The notes beneath the pieces are model-generated. The model worked only from the letters and a program-made list of their open reading frames with translations. It ran no database searches and was not told where the DNA came from. Below are positions 8,281 to 30,499 of a stretch of 39,226 bases of DNA, one piece after another (positions within the stretch are counted from its first letter, which is position 1; every line of letters starts with the position of its first letter). Source of the DNA: a virus. Both the position numbers and the translations under genes were made by a program. Location: positions 1 to 39,226 of IMG/VR virus record IMGVR_UViG_3300027784_000769. One strand, written 5' to 3'.

Positions 8281-8321
8281 CATTGCCGATTAGCCGCGGC
8301 AGTGCTGATGATGGCAGGCTA
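8281..8321 (+). promoter_or_regulatory. repeated leader element copy 1: hairpin, CTGATGA, pseudoknot strand
   Basis: Stem CATTGCC (8281-8287) with GGCAGTG (8298-8304), then CTGATGA (8305-8311), then a GGC-rich strand. Loop bases TAGCC (8291-8295) can pair with GGCTA (8317-8321). An A-rich stretch and the ribosome site of the amidoligase follow. Copies 2 and 3 precede other genes in this module. Confidence 0.5.
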
Positions 8322-8348
8322 AACAAAACTTTTAAAGGGGTGCTGAAA

Positions 8349-9194
8349 ATGAAAAAGATCGTTAACAGCTTTAATGAAGAAAGAACTTTTGGAGTAGAGA
8401 TTGAGTTTGTGCATAACAACGCGGAGCAGGTTGCAGCTAAAGTGAGGGAATACGGGTTGGATTGCAGGGTTGAACATTATAACCACGAAGATCGAACATG
8501 GTGGAAGATTGTTACCGACGCAAGCGTGCAGGCGCGGAACGGCCAGATTGGCCGCGGACTTGAAATTGTTAGCCCGATTTTAAAAGGCCGCGAAGGGCTT
8601 GCAGAAATTGAAACTGTTTGCGCCGCGCTGGAACAAGCTGGCGCCGACGTTAACGTTACAGCCGGCTTGCACGTGCATCACGACGCAAGCGATTTTAACG
8701 TAAACAGCTTTAAAAACATAACCTTACTTTATACCCGTTACGAAAAAACAATAGACAGTTTAATGCCGCGCAGCCGCCGGGCAAACGGGAACCAATATTG
8801 CAAGAGCTTGTTTGATGCCCGGATGGGCAGCTTTAGCAGCGACGAAGCGTTTATGAATTGGATTTACAATGCCAGCAGCACTGACCAACTGTTAAACTTT
8901 TTTACAGACCGGTTTTTAAAGCTTAACTTAAGGGCTTACCGGGCGCACAGCACGGTTGAATTTAGGCAGCACAGCGGAACGGTTGAAGCGCCGAAAATTA
9001 TAAACTGGATTAAGTTAACGCAAGCAATGGTTAACAAGGCGACTGACCGCAACGTTTTGAACCCCAAAAACGTTGACGATAGCTGGAAAAGCTTTAAGAA
9101 AGCCGTTGCACTGACCGGATACCGCGGCGCTGACGAAGAACTGCAGCAAGTGCAGAAATTTTACGGCAAGCGCCAGAAGCAGTTAGCAAGCTAA
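8349..9194 (+). CDS. phage amidoligase (Amidoligase_2-like)
   Basis: 281 residues from ATG 8349, preceded by AAAGGGGTG. It shows the order of motifs of the COOH-NH2 ligase (glutamine-synthetase-like fold) amidoligase family: FGVEIEF near residue 14, GLEIVSP, GLHVHHD near residue 107, and a C-terminal 'RAHSTVEFRQHSGT'. The acidic and His residues in these motifs are those expected for ATP and metal binding. Family members ligate a carboxylate to an amine, making isopeptide or peptide bonds; phage substrates are not known. A gamma-glutamylcyclotransferase lies 3 kb downstream, a pairing known from comparative genomics of this family. It is the first gene after the candidate leader RNA. Confidence 0.8.
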   Translation: MKKIVNSFNEERTFGVEIEFVHNNAEQVAAKVREYGLDCRVEHYNHEDRTWWKIVTDASVQARNGQIGRGLEIVSPILKGREGLAEIETVCAALEQAGADVNVTAGLHVHHDASDFNVNSFKNITLLYTRYEKTIDSLMPRSRRANGNQYCKSLFDARMGSFSSDEAFMNWIYNASSTDQLLNFFTDRFLKLNLRAYRAHSTVEFRQHSGTVEAPKIINWIKLTQAMVNKATDRNVLNPKNVDDSWKSFKKAVALTGYRGADEELQQVQKFYGKRQKQLAS

Positions 9195-12035: not shown

Positions 12036-12143
12036 ATGAACGAAGCAGCTTTTGATTTTTTTGTTAACTTTTGGTTGTTTGGCTTTATGTTATGGGTGCA
12101 AGGTGTTTGCATATATATTTTAAAAGTAAGAAGGGGTGAATAA
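12036..12143 (+). CDS. 35-residue membrane protein
   Basis: ATG 12036 follows AAGGAGTTGGGTGG. The peptide has one hydrophobic, aromatic-rich segment (FDFFVNFWLFGFMLWVQGV) and ends in KVRRGE, giving an inside-positive C-terminus. The stop TAA at 12141-12143 is one base before the next start codon, so the two genes are coupled. Small phage membrane proteins like this often act in lysis or host takeover, but nothing here proves it. Confidence 0.5.
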   Translation: MNEAAFDFFVNFWLFGFMLWVQGVCIYILKVRRGE

Positions 12144-12144
12144 C

Positions 12145-12633
12145 ATGGGCAAAAAAATGATATATTTCGCTTATGGCAGCAACTTAAACTTAAGGCAGAT
12201 GAAGCAGCGCTGCCCGGACGCACGGCCGATCGGAGTGGCAAAGCTGCCCGGACACAGGCTGGTTTTCCGCGGCGTTGCTGACGTGATACCTAACAGGCAG
12301 GGCGGATCGGTTATGGGTGTTATATGGGAAATAACGCCGCGCTGCTTAAAGGAGCTTGATCGTTATGAAGGTTATCCGCATTTATACGGCCGGCGATACT
12401 GCACGGTGATCGGCGAAGATGACGGCATATTGCGCGAAGCGATCGTTTACTATATGAAGAAGGGCGATCTTGCGCCGCCGAGCCGCGGATACTGGAAGGT
12501 GATCATGGAAGGATATAATGACTTTTGCATGGTGCCACGGCGCGATCTGCTGGAACCGAATTATGGTTACGGGAACGCGCGGCTGGACTATGATTGCGAA
12601 AAGTATTATCAGAGCGTTTTGCATTGGTATTAA
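12145..12633 (+). CDS. gamma-glutamylcyclotransferase-like protein (AIG2/GGCT fold)
   Basis: 162 residues from ATG 12145. The N-terminal YFAYGSNLN is the hallmark loop of the GGCT/AIG2 family, followed by GHRLVFRGVADVIP, a 'GSVMGVIWEI' strand and LDRYEGYP, where the Glu is the expected catalytic acid/base. The family cleaves gamma-glutamyl amide bonds to give 5-oxoproline and free amine. In a phage operon headed by an amidoligase, one enzyme may make and the other remove or trim gamma-glutamyl-type links. An in-frame GTG at 12136 is less likely because it is inside the ribosome site AAGGGGTG. Confidence 0.8.
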   Translation: MGKKMIYFAYGSNLNLRQMKQRCPDARPIGVAKLPGHRLVFRGVADVIPNRQGGSVMGVIWEITPRCLKELDRYEGYPHLYGRRYCTVIGEDDGILREAIVYYMKKGDLAPPSRGYWKVIMEGYNDFCMVPRRDLLEPNYGYGNARLDYDCEKYYQSVLHWY

Positions 12634-20878: not shown

Positions 20879-21085
20879 GTGGGTGATCTGTTTATTTTAA
20901 TTTATAACCGCGCAAGCGGCGCCTGCAATGTTTACGTGAATGGCATGGAGATCGCTGTTAAGGGCGACCTTAAGGCGTGGCGCGTTTTGCAGCTTATGCA
21001 ATTATATGAGCATAACAGCGAAGCGCTGCCGGTGCCGGAAAAACCTTATGAAACACGGGAGGAAAACACTGATGCAAACGAATGA
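20879..21085 (+). CDS. small phage protein, unknown
   Basis: 68 residues from GTG 20879; GGCAGGTG is the likely ribosome site. It has a beta-rich first half (DLFILIYNRASGACNVYVNG, IAVKGD) and a helix (WRVLQLMQLYEH) with an acidic C-terminus. No family is recognised. It overlaps the next gene by 14 nt. TTG 20873 is an alternative start. Confidence 0.5.
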   Translation: MGDLFILIYNRASGACNVYVNGMEIAVKGDLKAWRVLQLMQLYEHNSEALPVPEKPYETREENTDANE

Positions 21086-21677
21086 TATTATTGTTTGCCT
21101 TATGGGCAAAAGTGGCAGCGGCAAGACCGCGCTTGCGGACGTTTTGCGCAGGTATCACGGTTTTAACGTTATAAAATCCTTTACCACGCGCACGCCGCGG
21201 CCGGGTGAAAGCGGCGATGAATATTACTTTGTAGATCAGCCGCCGGCGCAGCCGGACGCTGACCCGGAAATAATAACTTATGCCGAACATAACGGCGCGC
21301 ATTACTGGACGGAGCGCAGCCAATATAAAGGCAAGGGCTGCAGCGCGTTTGTGGTTGAACCGATCGGCGCGCAGTTGTTAAAGCAAGAGGTTAACGACGC
21401 GCTGGTTGTTATTATTTATTTAGAGGTTGAAGAAGAAGAACGTTACCGGCGCATGAGGAAGCAGGGCCGGCGCATGGGTGATTATAGAATATACGCGGAC
21501 GGGAAAAAGTTTAATTATTCGCTGCTCCCGTGCGATTATATTATTAACGGCACGTTTCAAGACCCGGACGATCTGGCGTTTAGCATAGCTTCTGAAATGG
21601 AAAATATACAGCAAAACAAGGAAGGGGTGATTAGCAGATGGAAAAAAGCCGTGCAGAGCGTTTGTCGAAAATTTTAA
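21072..21677 (+). CDS. guanylate-kinase-like P-loop protein
   Basis: 201 residues from ATG 21072. Walker A is GKSGSGKT at residues 12-19, followed by 'SFTTRTPRPGESGDEYYFV', the GMP-binding signature of guanylate kinase (conserved T-R-PRPGE). A mid-protein 'VIIYLEVEEEERYRRM' resembles the lid region. It should phosphorylate (d)GMP or a modified nucleotide; a phage that modifies its DNA may need a kinase for unusual nucleotides, though that is inference. The gene overlaps the next by 40 nt. Confidence 0.8.
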   Translation: MQTNDIIVCLMGKSGSGKTALADVLRRYHGFNVIKSFTTRTPRPGESGDEYYFVDQPPAQPDADPEIITYAEHNGAHYWTERSQYKGKGCSAFVVEPIGAQLLKQEVNDALVVIIYLEVEEEERYRRMRKQGRRMGDYRIYADGKKFNYSLLPCDYIINGTFQDPDDLAFSIASEMENIQQNKEGVISRWKKAVQSVCRKF

Positions 21678-23874: not shown

Positions 23875-24408
23875 ATGGACTTACCGGACAAAACGTATGA
23901 AATAATATACGCAGATCCGCCGTGGCAATATAAAGATCGCGCGCTGGCAGGCGAACGCGGCGCCGGGTGCAAGTATAAAATTATGGATATTAAGGATATA
24001 CAGGCGCTTCCGGTGCCGCGGATCGCGGCAGAAAACAGCGTGCTTTTTCTTTGGGCCACGTTTCCGCTTATTGATGAAGCCTTGACCACGCTGGCAGGCT
24101 GGGGCTTTATGTATAAGACCGCGGCGTTTGTTTGGGTTAAGCTTAACAAGCGGCAGCCGACGCCGTTTTGGGGAATGGGCAACTGGACACGGGCGAACGC
24201 AGAGGTTTGCCTGCTGGGCATTAAAGGCAATCCAAAAAGAGTTAATGCCGGTGTGCATCAGGTTATTATGACGCCGCGCGAAGAACACAGTAAAAAACCG
24301 GACGAAGCAAGGCGGCGGATCGTGCAGCTTTTAGGCGATCGGCCGCGGATCGAATTGTTTGCACGGCAAACGGCCGCCGGCTGGGATAGCTGGGGCGACG
24401 AATTATAA
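23875..24408 (+). CDS. MT-A70-family N6-adenine methyltransferase
   Basis: 177 residues. The N-terminal DPPW motif (YADPPWQYKDRA), with KIMDIKDIQALP, LFLWATFPL and 'EVCLLGIKGNPKR', then PREEHSKKPDEA and GDRPRIELFARQ, is the complete signature of phage MT-A70 methyltransferases. They add a methyl group from SAM to N6 of adenine in DNA, often protecting phage DNA from host restriction. There is no separate specificity domain. It lies 1.1 kb before the ParB-methyltransferase-PP-loop fusion. AAAAGGAGGG precedes ATG 23875. Confidence 0.85.
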   Translation: MDLPDKTYEIIYADPPWQYKDRALAGERGAGCKYKIMDIKDIQALPVPRIAAENSVLFLWATFPLIDEALTTLAGWGFMYKTAAFVWVKLNKRQPTPFWGMGNWTRANAEVCLLGIKGNPKRVNAGVHQVIMTPREEHSKKPDEARRRIVQLLGDRPRIELFARQTAAGWDSWGDEL

Positions 24409-25489: not shown

Positions 25490-25524
25490 GTCCTTAAAAC
25501 AATTATTAACGGAGGTGGATAAAA

Positions 25525-27969
25525 TTGGAATTAAAACGGATGAAGCTTGAAGAAATAACGCCTGCGGAGTATAATCCGCGCGTGGATTTGCAGCCGGGCG
25601 ACCCTGAATATGAACGGCTGCGCAAAAGTTTGCAGGAGTTTGGGCTGGTTGATCCGCTGGTATTTAACAAGCGCACGGGGCGCCTTGTAGGCGGACATCA
25701 GCGCGTTAAGGTGCTGCAGGATCTTGGTTACACAGAAGCGGACGTCAGTTTGGTTGACCTGCCGGCGGAAAAGGAGCAGGCCTTGAACCTTGCGCTTAAC
25801 AAGATCGAAGGGCGCTGGGATGAAGATGCGCTGCGCGATGTTTTGGATAATATTAATAAGTGGATCGATGAAGAAATGCCGGACTTTGATATTGAAGCAA
25901 CTGGTTTTTCGGAGCAGGAAATAGACGATCTTATAGGCGATACGGAAGGGCTTATGGACGGCGCTGATTACATGGACGGCGACGGGCAAAGTTTGGCAGA
26001 GCGCTTTGTCGTGCCGCCATTTACGGTATTAGACGCGCGGCAGGGTTACTGGCGGCAGCGAAAAGAGGAATGGTATGCAAAGGGCATTATAACGGAGGCC
26101 GGCAGGGAGGATCTTGACGATACCACGGCTTCCGGTTGGGTGAGCCGCGGCAGGGATCAGGGCGGCAGCGCGTTTGATCCGGTGCTGGCAGAAATAGCGT
26201 TTAAATGGTTCTGCCCGGAAGGCGGCGCAGTGCTTGATCCGTTTGCCGGCGAAAGCACGAAGGGCATCGTGGCCGGGCTGCTGGGCTTTAGTTATACAGG
26301 CGTTGAAGTTAGGAAGGATCAGGTGGACGCCAATTACAGGCAGCTTGAAGCAATGCCGGAAAAACCGGGCGGCGAAGTGCGTTGGATCACTGGCGACGCT
26401 GCAAAGCTGGAAAGCGTTTTGCCGCAAGGGCAGGAGTATGATTTTATTTTTACCAGTCCGCCTTATTATGACTTGGAGGTTTACAGCAGTGAAGAAGCCG
26501 ACGGCAGCACGTTTGGCAGTTATGCTGAATTTATGGCGTGGTATGAGCATATCTTTAAGCAGGCCGTTGCGCAGTTAAAGGAAAACGCCTTTGTTGTGGT
26601 AAAAGTGGGCGAAATACGCGATAAAAAGACCGGCGCTTACCGGAACTTCGTGGGTGATAACATAAGCTGCTTTAAAGGGCTGGGCTTGCATTACTACAAC
26701 GAAGCGATCTTGGTTACTCCGGTCGGCAGCTTACCGCTGCGCGCCGGGCGGCAGTTTGAAGCAAGCCGCAAGCTGGGCAAGGCGCATCAGAATATCCTTG
26801 TATTTTACAAGGGCGACCTTAATAAAATTAAGGATCTGCAGTTTGTGGAAGTTGAACTGGACGAAGATGGCAGCGTTACGCTGGAAAGCGAAGCGGAAAC
26901 TGCTGCAGGCGATGGCGCGCAGGTGCAGGCTGCAGACGGCGGCGGCGGCAACGTAAAGATGAAGCTGGGCAAAGTGGCCGACAATGCGCTGCCGCGCGAA
27001 GCTATGGAGTTATATAACGCAACGGGATCGGTGCCTTTTGCAAAAAAGTTTAACGCCTGCCCGGAACTGGGCGAATATTTAAAGCTGGTTTACGGTGCAG
27101 GCGATCAAGAGCTTACACTGCAAGAAGTTGATTGCCCGAAGCCGATACCGTTACAGGATAACGGAACCTGCTGGGTGAGTTTTACCGGTGGGAAGGACAG
27201 CGTGGCTGCAGCGATCAGGGCGCAGGAGCGCGGTTACAAGGTGATCCCTTATTACTTGCAGGGCATTAACCGGGGCGTCGCCGATGAACTGCACTATGCG
27301 CAGAAGATCTGCGACCGCATGGGTTGGCCGCTGGTTGTAGATAAGATCAGTATTAGCGGCAAAAAAAGCGGCGTTGTAGAAATGCCGACCAAAAATCAAG
27401 TCATTGTTTTGTGTATGCTGGGGCGCATGGCAGAACAGGGCGGCGCAGCTTGGACGGCCGGTTATCACGAAGATACGGCGCAGGCGGAACGCGGCTGGGG
27501 CTTTGACTTTAGCGACGGCGACAAAGCGGTTGCGCTGTTTAACGCTTACCTTGAAAAGCGCGTGCCGGGTGTTAAGTTCTTAATGCTGCTGCAAGATACG
27601 CTTGAATGCTGGGCTTTGTGCGCGGACTATGGACTAATCAACTATATTAAAGGCTGCGCTTGTCAGCCACGGTTTAAGGAAATGCGCCGGAAGAAGAATG
27701 TTGAAAAGTTCGGCGCTGCTAATATACTGCACGGCCGCTGCGGAAGCTGTATAAAGTGCGCGTGGGAACAGGTTGCACTTCAACGGCTGGGCATAGTGCC
27801 GGAAAGCCGCGCGGTTAGACAGCACGGCTTGAAGTTCTTGGAGCAGTTTAAAAGTGTTTGGAATACCGGCGGCCGGGATATGGAAAATTATTTAGTGCCG
27901 CAAAGCAGGGCCGAACAGGAAAAACAGGCAAGGCGTGGCCGGTGGCCGAAGCAGCCGATGCCTGATTAA
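25525..27969 (+). CDS. ParB / DNA methyltransferase / PP-loop ATPase fusion
   Basis: 814 residues from TTG 25525 after GGAGGTGG. Residues 1-95 are a ParB/Srx-like domain (ITPAEYNPR, LVGGHQRVKVL). Residues about 155-440 are a SAM-dependent amino-methyltransferase: LDPFAGESTKG near 238 and FIFTSPPYYD near 310 (the TSPPY catalytic motif). A short linker leads to residues about 545-770, a PP-loop ATPase of the QueC/PAPS-reductase superfamily: VSFTGGKDSVAAA near 552 and a Cys cluster GCACQP, GRCGSCIKCAWE near 737, like the zinc or iron-sulfur Cys set of QueC. ParB-methyltransferase fusions are known in phages; adding a PP-loop enzyme suggests chemistry beyond methylation, such as thiolation or base replacement. 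Neighbours are an unknown protein and a Mom-like protein. Confidence 0.75.
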   Translation: MELKRMKLEEITPAEYNPRVDLQPGDPEYERLRKSLQEFGLVDPLVFNKRTGRLVGGHQRVKVLQDLGYTEADVSLVDLPAEKEQALNLALNKIEGRWDEDALRDVLDNINKWIDEEMPDFDIEATGFSEQEIDDLIGDTEGLMDGADYMDGDGQSLAERFVVPPFTVLDARQGYWRQRKEEWYAKGIITEAGREDLDDTTASGWVSRGRDQGGSAFDPVLAEIAFKWFCPEGGAVLDPFAGESTKGIVAGLLGFSYTGVEVRKDQVDANYRQLEAMPEKPGGEVRWITGDAAKLESVLPQGQEYDFIFTSPPYYDLEVYSSEEADGSTFGSYAEFMAWYEHIFKQAVAQLKENAFVVVKVGEIRDKKTGAYRNFVGDNISCFKGLGLHYYNEAILVTPVGSLPLRAGRQFEASRKLGKAHQNILVFYKGDLNKIKDLQFVEVELDEDGSVTLESEAETAAGDGAQVQAADGGGGNVKMKLGKVADNALPREAMELYNATGSVPFAKKFNACPELGEYLKLVYGAGDQELTLQEVDCPKPIPLQDNGTCWVSFTGGKDSVAAAIRAQERGYKVIPYYLQGINRGVADELHYAQKICDRMGWPLVVDKISISGKKSGVVEMPTKNQVIVLCMLGRMAEQGGAAWTAGYHEDTAQAERGWGFDFSDGDKAVALFNAYLEKRVPGVKFLMLLQDTLECWALCADYGLINYIKGCACQPRFKEMRRKKNVEKFGAANILHGRCGSCIKCAWEQVALQRLGIVPESRAVRQHGLKFLEQFKSVWNTGGRDMENYLVPQSRAEQEKQARRGRWPKQPMPD

Positions 27970-27989
27970 TTAAAAAGGTGGGTGCTTTT

Positions 27990-28577
27990 ATGGCGTTGAT
28001 CGATTTAAGGTTAGGCGATCGCAAGTGGATCCGGGCTAAAGAGATCGCGCGGTGGATGGAAGAAGCCGGTTACGATCAGGCGATCTGCTTTAGTTGTGGC
28101 AATGCAAGCAAAGAGTTAAAAAATGCCGGCATTAAGACCCTTGAGATTGCGCCGGGGCGCGACCTGCAGGCGCAGCGGTGGTTCAAGCAAAGCGAGATCC
28201 GCCGCTTTTGGCCGCACTGCTTTGACGCGACCAGTGGGAACCTGCCGGCGGAGCTTATGGAACGGATCGGCTGGCGGCTGGCAACGCTGGCAAAGTTTGA
28301 ACTTAAGGAACGTGGCTTTATTGACCGGGATCGCGATGTTTTGATCCGGGAGGATACTTACCGGATCACTTGCGGCAGCGGCGAAACACTGGTTGCGCTG
28401 GCAATGGCAAAGCCGGGCTTTAAGTTTGAAGCGGTTTACGACAATGAGAACCCGGCGACGCGGTTTGAAAAAGAAGCGCCGTTGACGCCGCTGGTTTTTA
28501 ACATAGCGGAGCGCGTTTGGCTGGGTGATAAACTTTTAAAGGCTTGCGACGCTTCCTTTTACTGGGTGGAAGGTTAA
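27990..28577 (+). CDS. unrecognised protein of the putative DNA-modification cluster
   Basis: 195 residues from ATG 27990. Visible features: DQAICFSCGNASKELKNAG, CFDATSGNLPAEL and RITCGSGETLVALAMAKPG. The GN and GSGETL turns loosely resemble cofactor loops of PLP fold-type II enzymes, but the protein is too short for a full member and no catalytic Lys is assigned, so I do not name a function. It is 20 nt after the ParB-methyltransferase-PP-loop gene, and the Mom-like gene starts on the base after its stop codon. This spacing implies one operon and a shared pathway. AAAAAGGTGGG precedes the start. Confidence 0.6.
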   Translation: MALIDLRLGDRKWIRAKEIARWMEEAGYDQAICFSCGNASKELKNAGIKTLEIAPGRDLQAQRWFKQSEIRRFWPHCFDATSGNLPAELMERIGWRLATLAKFELKERGFIDRDRDVLIREDTYRITCGSGETLVALAMAKPGFKFEAVYDNENPATRFEKEAPLTPLVFNIAERVWLGDKLLKACDASFYWVEG

Positions 28578-29306
28578 ATGGGAACCTGCTGGCAGTATAT
28601 ACAACGGCAAAAGTTCGCTGCCGAAGGGCTGCCGGCAGGGCTGCAGCCGGATCAGTTAAAGCCACGCCTTGCGCACGTTGCACGGATCAGCAAGGATCAG
28701 GCGCGCGCGGTTATCCTGAAATATGAATGGCTGGGAACAATGGCGCAAACGGGCCTTCATTATGGCATATTTTACGGCGATCACTTGGCAGGCGTTACTT
28801 GCGTCAACGTGGGCGGCGCCGGGGCGGCCGGTGTTAACAGTCATAAGGAGTTTAACCTGCAGCGCGATCAGGTGGCTTATTTAGCGCGCGGCGCTTGCGT
28901 TCACTGGGCGCCGACCGGAACTAACAGCCGCCTTGTTAGCATAACGGCGCGCATGGTTGCAAAGGACAGCGCTGCAAAGGTGCTGCTTGCATACGCTGAC
29001 CCGGCTGCCGGGGAGATCGGAACAATATATCAGGCTTGCAACTGGTATTATATAGGCAGAACGTGGCCGGGCCGGCGCTGGGTGTCGCCTGATGGGCAAA
29101 AGGATCGCGATTGGAAATATCCTTATGATCTTAAAAAACAGCGCGGAAAAACTCGTAAACACTGGGCGGACTGGTTAAAGGCGCAGGGCTGGACTGTTAA
29201 GGTGCTGCAGCCGAAATATAAATACGTGGCAATCTTGGACAAGGGCGACCCGGATCTGTTAAAATTGATTAAGGGAAAAGCGCAGGCTTATCCTAAAAAA
29301 GTTTGA
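28578..29306 (+). CDS. Mom-like GNAT-fold DNA modification protein
   Basis: 242 residues. The order of segments is that of the Mom family, which shares the GNAT acyltransferase fold: YEWLGTMAQTGLHYGIFYG, DHLAGVTCVN, YLARGACVHWAPTGTNSRL, then 'LLAYADPAAGEIGTIYQA' and CNWYYIGRT near residues 130-160. The block with ADPAxGExGTIYQAxNWxYxG is the part that recalls Mom. Mu Mom converts adenine to N6-carbamoylmethyladenine and protects phage DNA. The exact product of this homologue is unknown. It abuts the preceding gene with no gap and is followed by a tRNA-like element. Confidence 0.65.
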   Translation: MGTCWQYIQRQKFAAEGLPAGLQPDQLKPRLAHVARISKDQARAVILKYEWLGTMAQTGLHYGIFYGDHLAGVTCVNVGGAGAAGVNSHKEFNLQRDQVAYLARGACVHWAPTGTNSRLVSITARMVAKDSAAKVLLAYADPAAGEIGTIYQACNWYYIGRTWPGRRWVSPDGQKDRDWKYPYDLKKQRGKTRKHWADWLKAQGWTVKVLQPKYKYVAILDKGDPDLLKLIKGKAQAYPKKV

Positions 29307-29547: not shown

Positions 29548-29590
29548 GGTGGCCGCGACAACGGATGAAACGGCTGGGAGGTGGAGATTT

Positions 29591-30499
29591 TTGCTTAACG
29601 AGAACAGGTTATATGCGGAAAAGCAGGGTATCGACAAGTATCACGACGCAGGCTTTAAAGGTGCAGGCGTGCGGATCGGAATGCTGGATACCGGCTTTGT
29701 GATCCCTGACGGATGGCTGGGTGGAAAAATAAAATATGGCGGCGAACCGGAAACGTTTAACGGGCAGCAGTGGGAACACGGTGCAATGACCGCGCACGTT
29801 TTGCATCAGGTTGCGCCGGAAGCTACAATTTACACTTTTAACGCGAACCGGTTAATGCCTTATGACGTGATCGAACTTTGCATAAAGCAGAACATTGATA
29901 TATTAACTGCAAGTCTTGGTTATCCAGATCCGGGCAGTTGGTTCATGCGCGAATTGGCAAAGTGGAGTGAAAAGCTCCTTAACAAAGGCGGCCTGCTTTG
30001 TGCTGCAGCCGGGAACAGCGATTATGACGGTGTTAGCGTGCCGGCGAAAAAGGATACGTGGCTGGCAGTGGGCGCAGCCGTTCTTGACAGCGGTGCTATA
30101 GTTAGGAAGTATTATAGCGCGGTTGGCAGTGCGCTTGAAGTCATGGGCTTTACGAACTGGCGTATAAACATTAAGCCGGTGGGTGATACGATCGTGGATA
30201 TTTATACCGGAACAAGCGCTGCTTGTCCGAACGTGGCCGGGCTGCTTGCGTTATATATAACGGCACGCGGCAAGCCGCGCAGCAAGGAGCAGATCCGGGC
30301 CATGATCGAAGCAAACACGCTCCCAGTCGTGCAGGCGCACAGCCGCGATAAATATACCGGCTTTGGGCTGCTTGTTTTGCCGGCGTTGGACGAACTGGGC
30401 GATTATGATAATGGCGGCAACGGCAACGGTGCGCCGGGCTTTTGGGAGCAGTTGTTCCTTTTTATGCGCAAGCTTGTCAAAAAGCTATTTTCGCGATAA
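29591..30499 (+). CDS. intracellular-type subtilisin-like serine protease (S8)
   Basis: 302 residues from TTG 29591, after GGGAGGTGG; an in-frame GTG at 29549 has no ribosome site. The catalytic triad is visible: D33 (IGMLDTGF), H63 (EHGAMTAHV) and S209 (GTSAACPNVAG), with oxyanion N142 (AAGNSD). There is no signal peptide or propeptide, so it acts inside the cell or virion. The C-terminus is a Gly/Asn linker (GNGNGAPG) and an amphipathic basic helix (FLFMRKLVKKLFSR), like the truncated gene at the window start. Its place just before the terminase genes is unusual; it might mature capsid proteins or attack host proteins. Confidence 0.8.
   Translation: MLNENRLYAEKQGIDKYHDAGFKGAGVRIGMLDTGFVIPDGWLGGKIKYGGEPETFNGQQWEHGAMTAHVLHQVAPEATIYTFNANRLMPYDVIELCIKQNIDILTASLGYPDPGSWFMRELAKWSEKLLNKGGLLCAAAGNSDYDGVSVPAKKDTWLAVGAAVLDSGAIVRKYYSAVGSALEVMGFTNWRINIKPVGDTIVDIYTGTSAACPNVAGLLALYITARGKPRSKEQIRAMIEANTLPVVQAHSRDKYTGFGLLVLPALDELGDYDNGGNGNGAPGFWEQLFLFMRKLVKKLFSR

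Follow-up and report, generated by a model that had tools for sequence, protein, structure and literature searches.

A phage operon of methyltransferase, QueC-like, PLP-fold-like and Mom-family modules: a putative modular system for DNA base hypermodification

What might a phage do to its own DNA with a methyltransferase, a PP-loop domain and a Mom-like protein encoded side by side? The question is raised by three genes on the plus strand at 25525-29306 of a 39,226-nucleotide stretch of viral DNA (IMG/VR record IMGVR_UViG_3300027784_000769; the whole stretch is hereafter the window). A first-pass annotation had described the genes as tightly packed, with gaps of 20 and 0 nt, and had proposed a DNA hypermodification system. 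Reading the sequence directly, we recovered the same coordinates and gaps (Table 1): ORF1 extends from a TTG start codon at 25525 to 27969, the likeliest ORF2 start is an ATG at 27990 preceded by AAGGTGGG, which leaves 20 nt between the two genes, and the ORF2 stop codon (TAA, 28575-28577) directly adjoins the ATG of ORF3 at 28578. Hypermodification still appears to be the best reading; we put the probability that the three genes form a modular phage system hypermodifying its own DNA bases, as a general scheme, at just over 60%. The domain calls behind the proposal were right, but Mom is not part of the core, and no link to the dPreQ0 or Dnd pathways emerged.

Table 1. Features of the three-gene operon, in window coordinates.
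Feature	Position	Strand	Basis
RBS of ORF1	25511..25518	+	GGAGGTGG, upstream of TTG 25525, read directly
ParB-like domain, ORF1 residues 1-142	25525..25950	+	PHROG 620, E 7e-40; Pfam ParB_N weak, 0.008
Exocyclic-amino DNA methyltransferase, ORF1 residues 159-447	25999..26865	+	PF01555, E 2e-14; PHROG 498, 4e-114
QueC/QatC-type PP-loop domain, ORF1 residues 476-814, C-terminal fusion	26950..27966	+	Profile and AF2 model
PP-loop motif SFTGGKDS, ORF1 residues 552-559	27178..27201	+	G-G-x-D invariant, 29 relatives
Four invariant Cys, ORF1 C711, C739, C742, C745	27655..27759	+	C-x27-CGxCxKC, 29-relative alignment
ORF2, predicted compact fold-type II PLP-like protein, 195 aa	27990..28577	+	Alignment, AF2 and fold searches
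ORF3, Mom-family (GNAT fold) DNA modification protein	28578..29306	+	PF25680, E 7e-24; PHROG 1384, 3e-27

In ORF1, the ParB-like domain and the TSPPY-type methyltransferase were both borne out by profile matches (Table 1). The protein has the features of ParB-associated N6/N4 amino-methyltransferases: a DPFxG SAM motif (DPFAGES at residue 238), a catalytic SPPY (within TSPPYY at residue 310) and a ParB domain. Judging by these motifs, the SPPY module would place a group, presumably SAM-derived, on an exocyclic amine (adenine N6 or cytosine N4), and the ParB part would hold or guide the enzyme on DNA. PADLOC matched ORF1 mainly to methyltransferase models and weakly to QueC, and gave no known defence system name to ORF2, ORF3 or the L050 PP-loop.

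The C-terminal part of ORF1 had been called a QueC/PAPS-reductase-type PP-loop ATPase with a Cys cluster, and the QueC-type call withstood comparison by profile and by model. On its own, the sequence scores 13.6 bits against Pfam QueC (PF06508), under the cut-off of 22; a 29-sequence profile matches E. coli QueC at 3e-6 and, in the PDB, TtuA (1.8e-11), Cap9 (1.9e-6) and QueC (3.6e-4). Structure prediction, which had been suggested as a check, supports the fold, as the AF2 model (pLDDT 91.0) matches QatC (Z 16.1, 268 aa), Cap9 (15.4, 173 aa) and QueC (14.7, 187 aa). These three members of the QueC family (PMC13329287, PMC13279940), Cap9 being that of type IV CBASS, are its best structural matches, and the likeness extends to SGGxDS, CGxCxxC, P-x-(K/R)-N and an Asp at the YPDC position. 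The Cys pattern of the window, C711-x27-CGSCIKC, resembles the QueC/QatC zinc site, although its spacing differs from the x8 of QueC and the x19 of QatC (PMC13329287). Unlike the QueC family, this domain is joined to a DNA methyltransferase or lies next to one, and the full YxQxHxxE/YPDC signature is lost; aligned with E. coli QueC, it retains just P-x-K-N and the Asp of the canonical YxQxHxxE/VPxRN/YPDC. The main text of a 2026 survey of the QueC family mentions neither methyltransferases nor ParB (PMC13329287). In the manner of QueC and Cap9, the domain would activate a carboxylate with ATP and then join it to an amine.

A different chemistry is DNA thiolation, in which a PLP-type protein would release the sulfur of cysteine and the PP-loop domain would insert it into a base, carrying to DNA what TtuA, ThiI and LarE do on RNA or cofactors. 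TtuA is indeed the top PDB match by sequence profile, but in structure QatC, Cap9 and QueC (Z 16.1-14.6) outscore ThiI, LarE and TtuA (12.7 and lower), and the four-Cys CGxCxKC arrangement follows the QueC/QatC zinc-site pattern (PMC13329287). We regard thiolation as unlikely.

The middle gene, ORF2, had gone unrecognised and can now be assigned. Its AF2 model (pLDDT 91.5) matches threonine synthase (Z 11.3, 164 residues), and the best 50 VIA-align rows belong to the fold-type II (tryptophan-synthase-beta group) superfamily, at Z 9.2-11.3. Foldseek gave probabilities of 0.97-1.00 for most CBS, OASS and TrpB rows; its lowest single E-value fell on an SRP GTPase (TM 0.27). By sequence, ORF2 has no PF00291 match at E 1 (nor have two relatives at E 10), no match to CysK/CysM profiles and, by profile, no true relative among PDB sequences. 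The link between the ORF2 and PALP profiles is weak (hhalign probability 43, E 2.5e-4, with the Lys region outside the alignment), so the placement in the PLP superfamily rests on the predicted structure. A scan of viral contigs with the single ORF2 sequence found no relatives; a three-member alignment did recover them. A match to F420 dehydrogenase (0.075) was judged to be chance, and a role as a second methyltransferase was dropped after the fold searches gave fold-type II PLP. As modelled, ORF2 is a compact fold-type II PLP-like protein, in a form missed by sequence libraries.

By its model, ORF2 has the fold of threonine synthase, cysteine synthase and cystathionine beta-synthase over 162-178 residues (Z 11.3-9.2), and its invariant Lys, which starts the first helix, and its SxGN and GSGE loops may be the counterparts of theirs. 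Invariant positions in the 27-member alignment are K12, R15, S35-C36-G37-N38, A80-T81-x-G83 and G129-S130-G131-E132; in a comparison by secondary structure, K12, SCGN and GSGE lie where they would in PLP enzymes. The Lys, present in 27/27 relatives, and the association of modules described below both count for the hypermodification scheme. Unlike the fold-type II enzymes, ORF2 proteins are about 160-200 residues long, missing the C-terminal part and some of the small domain, are genetically tied to a DNA methyltransferase and have no Pfam PALP match. Of the roughly 348 residues of threonine synthase, ORF2 covers 43-268, so the C-terminal segment needed to complete the PLP site is absent and the protein may lack enzymatic activity.

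ORF2 could then be a non-catalytic, degenerate PLP-fold subunit that keeps the methyltransferase stable or determines which DNA it targets, and the product would be an ordinary methylated base. Its truncation relative to full fold-type II enzymes and a methyltransferase that adjoins it nearly always would fit such a role, but Lys12, Arg15, SxGN and GSGE are invariant down to 30% identity, a pattern like that of an active site, and the alternative partner, PALP, is a larger and fuller PLP domain that keeps its Lys in 64/66. This explanation seems to us quite unlikely. Under the hypermodification scheme, ORF2 would work in complex with the methyltransferase, since its PALP counterpart occurs as a methyltransferase fusion, and would act on the alpha-amino-acid moiety, either in the donor or in the base-borne group. 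In favour of thiolation, fold-type II also includes H2S-producing enzymes (matched rows Fn1220 and Fn1055).

How often do these modules occur together in other phages? Associations were drawn from three viral-contig scans, each with a partner alone as the query (ORF2, PP-loop or PALP). A ParB-methyltransferase adjoins ORF2 in 31/32 ORF2 loci, lies alongside the PP-loop nearly always, and is mostly fused or adjacent to PALP. Over all fetched loci, a tally that certain contigs enter more than once, a methyltransferase lies within 100 nt of ORF2 in 43 cases and within 2 kb in 10 (one locus is without), is fused to the PP-loop in 9 and within 100 nt of it in 28, and is fused to PALP in 33 and within 100 nt in 15. 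When loci were sampled by the methyltransferase only (best 80 by score, 79 loci), PALP was present in 8, ORF2 in 7, and SAM decarboxylase and Mom in one each, and 61/79 had no visible partner. None of the fetched loci, and none of the whole records searched, holds both ORF2 and PALP, as expected of alternatives. ORF2 and the PP-loop are each often present without the other, and therefore need not belong to one linear pathway.

PALP can be inserted into the methyltransferase, always at a single site immediately before motif III (in Pam4, on the motif III/IV face), and in L044-L047 the PP-loop is inserted only a few positions from there. Cultured phages with systems of this kind include AlanGrant, Pam4, ZS04 and ZRG1. 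Partner modules have been recruited repeatedly onto the methyltransferase; its tree holds at least 25 state changes for PALP, at least 11 for the PP-loop and at least 3 for ORF2. In three related phages a SAM decarboxylase gene overlaps that of the methyltransferase; the three form one clade and so represent one origin. Other phages have a fused GNAT or LPG_synthase_C domain as a further occasional partner. In ZS04 and L148, a PAPS-reductase-like gene close to the PALP-methyltransferase fusion would suit thiolation, but most PALP and ORF2 loci are without a PP-loop of this family.

That these modules recur together in many unrelated phages suggests that DNA bases are decorated in a way not yet described. 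One possible form, which we propose tentatively, is a hypermodification of adenine N6 or cytosine N4 for which a non-methyl group (for example SAM's aminocarboxypropyl, or the aminopropyl of decarboxylated SAM) would be added and then tailored on DNA by PLP-type and QueC-like modules, partly within the same polypeptide as the methyltransferase-fold enzyme. An amino-acid-bearing handle, such as SAM's 3-amino-3-carboxypropyl, is a rather doubtful guess, made because its amine would suit modules of the PLP and GNAT types and its carboxylate the ligase. We predict that a sizeable share of the phage genes that annotation treats as simple DNA methyltransferases in fact produce larger modifications of bases, and a small unrecognised protein family beside a common phage methyltransferase gains a predicted identity. 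Such modifications shield phages against restriction, affect sequencing and supply enzymes for site-directed DNA labelling.

In Synechococcus phage S-B43, CmoA-CmoX-CmoY makes 5-carboxymethylcytosine: a methyltransferase homologue adds a handle from a SAM derivative, which is then lengthened by an ATP-dependent, AMP-forming ligase (PMC12783734). ParB-domain proteins are frequently found near systems of this type, and the authors report that they found no N6 or N4 counterpart with a CmoA association (PMC12783734). The proposed system would resemble this one in its SAM-derived handle placed by a methyltransferase relative, its AMP-forming ligase and its nearby ParB domain. However, CmoX is a C5-cytosine enzyme whereas the window methyltransferase is of the N6/N4 type, CmoY is an asparagine-synthetase homologue whereas the ligase-like domain here is QueC/QatC-like, and the window operon has a PLP-type protein. 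The window contains neither CmoA nor a C5-methyltransferase, and the Cx-SAM (5cxmC) pathway was rejected for lack of CmoA. Phages M6 and ViI tailor bases with PLP, ligase-like and GNAT-type enzymes in thymidine hypermodification, in pathways that begin at 5-hydroxymethyl-dU and use other PLP folds; the starting enzyme in the window is instead an amino-methyltransferase.

The suggested relation to dPreQ0 or Dnd was not upheld. QueD/PTPS is absent from the 16 viral records searched, unlike the situation for canonical QueC, and the 7-deazaguanine (dPreQ0) pathway was rejected on this ground. An Aminotran_5/DndA desulfurase is likewise absent from the 14 records searched, the window among them, although a host gene might supply it, and Dnd phosphorothioation was rejected with no desulfurase beside the PP-loop. 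The window is also without a radical-SAM protein; one of unknown kind occurs in 3 of 16 records. Searches of open-access papers found no description of this module combination; an earlier mention in other literature may exist.

ORF3 had been likened to Mom, and its match to PF25680 is near full length: it scores 85 bits, where the cut-off is 27.1, and spans positions 3-202 of the 202-position profile. It thereby shares a family with Mom of phage Mu and relatives; unlike Mu Mom, it has QueC-like, PLP-type and methyltransferase modules in its operon. Mom makes N6-carbamoylmethyl-adenine, and ORF3 would add or diversify an adenine modification. Among the ORF2 records searched, Mom is in the operon only in the window and its close relative L002, and is absent from 19 further ORF2 records. 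The recurrent core is the methyltransferase and the PLP-fold protein, with or without the PP-loop, and Mom is a lineage-specific addition, the variable piece.

The genes might even be independent neighbours, comprising a plain adenine or cytosine methyltransferase, Mom, and a QueC-like protein whose role is to modify proteins or to counteract the defences of the host. Both Mom and the methyltransferase are known to occur alone, the QueC-like Cap9 and QatC target proteins in host defence (PMC13279940), and the PP-loop and ORF2 are each found apart. We consider this very unlikely in view of the fusions and insertions of domains in the methyltransferase and of the gene order retained in L002. The search for this order in other phages, proposed in the first-pass annotation, found it there: L002 has the same three genes in the order of the window, with a PP-loop 74% identical to that of the window, and the ORF1-ORF2 pair of L002 is also present in a Syntrophomonadaceae MAG contig, so the arrangement is not chance.

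Re-reading coordinates and gene starts in the sequence bore out the three tightly packed genes of the first-pass annotation, with the spacing it had claimed. In ORF1, a methyltransferase bearing DPFAGES and TSPPYY motifs sits between a ParB-like domain and a C-terminal PP-loop domain; ORF2, the middle gene, most likely starts at the ATG at 27990; and ORF3 is a Mom protein, matched in both Pfam and PHROGs.

Searches of Pfam, PHROGs and PADLOC gave no match for ORF2. A relative found in L001, a human gut phage record, also adjoins a methyltransferase, and a three-member alignment used as query retrieved 32 viral loci; K12, R15, CFSCGNA, AT-x-G and GSGE are invariant among 27 aligned sequences. 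Using the confident AF2 model, the lowest single Foldseek E-value belonged to an SRP GTPase (TM only 0.27), followed by cystathionine beta-synthase, O-acetylserine sulfhydrylase and TrpB (probability mostly 0.97-1.00, TM up to 0.54). On realignment, fold-type II PLP proteins filled all of the best 50 rows shown (threonine synthase at Z 11.3, with 164 residues aligned), with ORF2 spanning just the first two thirds of these enzymes. We identify ORF2 as a predicted compact PLP-type protein, an assignment based on predicted fold and conservation because profile comparison matched it only weakly to PALP, the larger PLP-type domain found in other phages.

Single-sequence scores of the PP-loop domain fell under the cut-off, and a profile including 29 viral-contig relatives matched TtuA, Cap9 and QueC. 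For its model (pLDDT 91.0) the top structural match was QatC, aligned along almost the full length at Z 16.1 (268 residues). Cap9 and QueC ranked next; thiolation enzymes reached Z 12.7 and lower. Compared with E. coli QueC, the domain keeps the PP-loop, the YPDC Asp, and P-x-K-N where QueC has VPxRN. All four cysteines of C-x27-CGxCxKC are invariant across the 29-relative alignment; a zinc site of this type is present in QueC and QatC, and in the reactions of QueC and Cap9 an activated carboxylate is coupled to ammonia or to an amine of a protein (PMC13329287, PMC13279940). From this likeness and chemistry, we infer ATP-dependent amide formation.

Separate scans with ORF2, PP-loop or PALP as the only query converged on one ParB-methyltransferase, carrying these modules in many layouts (see table). 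PALP inserts at methyltransferase profile positions 114-131 and PP-loop at 131-137, immediately ahead of the WITGDA motif; a few loci instead have PALP fused at the C-terminus. ORF2 and PALP never shared a fetched locus or searched record. Minimum changes on the methyltransferase tree were 25 for PALP, 11 for PP-loop and 3 for ORF2. In a methyltransferase-only sample, taken as the best 80 by score rather than randomly, PALP occurred in 8/79 loci and ORF2 in 7/79; pooled partner counts include some contigs from more than one scan, and fragmentary contigs hide partners. The PP-loop gene of Alsa_1 (profile positions 128-310 only) may be broken. In AlanGrant, gene 2 overlaps the ParB-methyltransferase gene, and its annotation as a nucleoside deaminase looks wrong.

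Arrangements around the ParB-methyltransferase (MTase; PP, PP-loop; L-numbers, comparison loci) and gene positions
Feature	Locus	Position (nt)	Detail
ORF1	Window	25525-27969	814 aa
ORF2	Window	27990-28577	195 aa
ORF3	Window	28578-29306	Mom
MTase-ORF2 alone			
MTase-ORF2-PP	L012, L013, L014, L024		
MTase-PP-ORF2	L015, L016, L036, L037		
MTase-PP-PALP	L049		
MTase-PP-PALP	L003 (Staphylococcus phage Alsa_1)	4633-7393	Divergent MTase, shortened PP gene, PALP gene
PALP inserted in MTase	Pam4, ZS04, many others		
PP inserted in MTase	L044-L047		
MTase split around PP gene	L052, L064		
PP and LPG_synthase_C within one MTase polypeptide	L067		
PALP-type gene 2	L090 (Mycobacterium phage AlanGrant)	1406-2275	
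PAPS-reductase-like gene	L007 (ZS04)	1-939	~1.4 kb upstream of PALP-MTase fusion
PAPS-reductase-like gene	L148	1272-2498	~1 kb upstream of PALP-MTase fusion
SAM decarboxylase	L219	5833-6108	
SAM decarboxylase	L088	4364-4753	
SAM decarboxylase	L008	6307-6627	
Amidoligase	Window	8283-9194	PF12224, 1e-46
Gamma-glutamyl cyclotransferase	Window	12136-12633	PF06094, 3e-15
Guanylate-kinase-like	Window	20940-21677	PHROG 1815, 1.5e-29
MT-A70 methyltransferase	Window	23875-24408	PF05063, 5e-33
Subtilase-like protease	Window	29549-30499	PF00082, 7e-16

SAM decarboxylase genes overlap the ParB-methyltransferase gene in Croceibacter phage P2559S, Pseudomonas phage ZRG1 and contig L219, three cases forming one clade of the methyltransferase tree; they possibly point to an aminopropyl donor for DNA. 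L054 and L056 carry GNAT domains as fusions. Mom is an addition to the core system, since among 21 records searched only the window and L002, which has the same three-gene order, carry it.

The domains, folds and repeated genetic and physical coupling are computational observations, and ORF2 is a partner within a widespread modular system. The operon described in the first-pass annotation stands, and its hypermodification reading was right in kind, the missing partner now being identified as the predicted compact PLP-type protein. On phage DNA as the probable target, the methyltransferase module would have N6-A or N4-C as its site of action, the PLP-type module would handle an alpha-amino-acid moiety, the QueC-like module would make an amide and Mom would act on adenine. 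A SAM-derived aminocarboxypropyl handle is a guess (probability roughly 0.25); it would explain why one enzyme has PLP-type proteins, SAM decarboxylase, GNAT domains and a ligase that activates a carboxylate as its partners, and why either the PLP-type or the PP-loop module can function in the other's absence. Among chemical alternatives, sulfur insertion is the leading one.

The nearest tested system, CmoA/CmoX/CmoY of Synechococcus phage S-B43, in which a DNA methyltransferase homologue adds a carboxymethyl handle that an ATP-dependent ligase extends (PMC12783734), is alike in outline but different: searches of the window found neither its CmoA nor its C5-methyltransferase, and its authors report no CmoA-associated candidates of the N6 or N4 type. 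The open-access literature searched, with key subscription papers outside its range, held no description of ParB-methyltransferase, PLP-type and QueC-like modules combined.

In the window, a phage record, primase/helicase genes lie upstream of the operon and terminase and head genes downstream, the latter separated from it by the protease gene. Because a Syntrophomonadaceae MAG carries a near-identical copy of the L002 ORF1-ORF2 pair, a clostridial host is suggested for this lineage. The MT-A70 gene, a second DNA methyltransferase 1.1 kb upstream of the operon, occupies a similar position in L002. Elsewhere, the window encodes a candidate nucleotide kinase (guanylate-kinase-like), and the amidoligase and gamma-glutamyl cyclotransferase are possibly a peptide-tagging pair, to which we draw no link from the operon.
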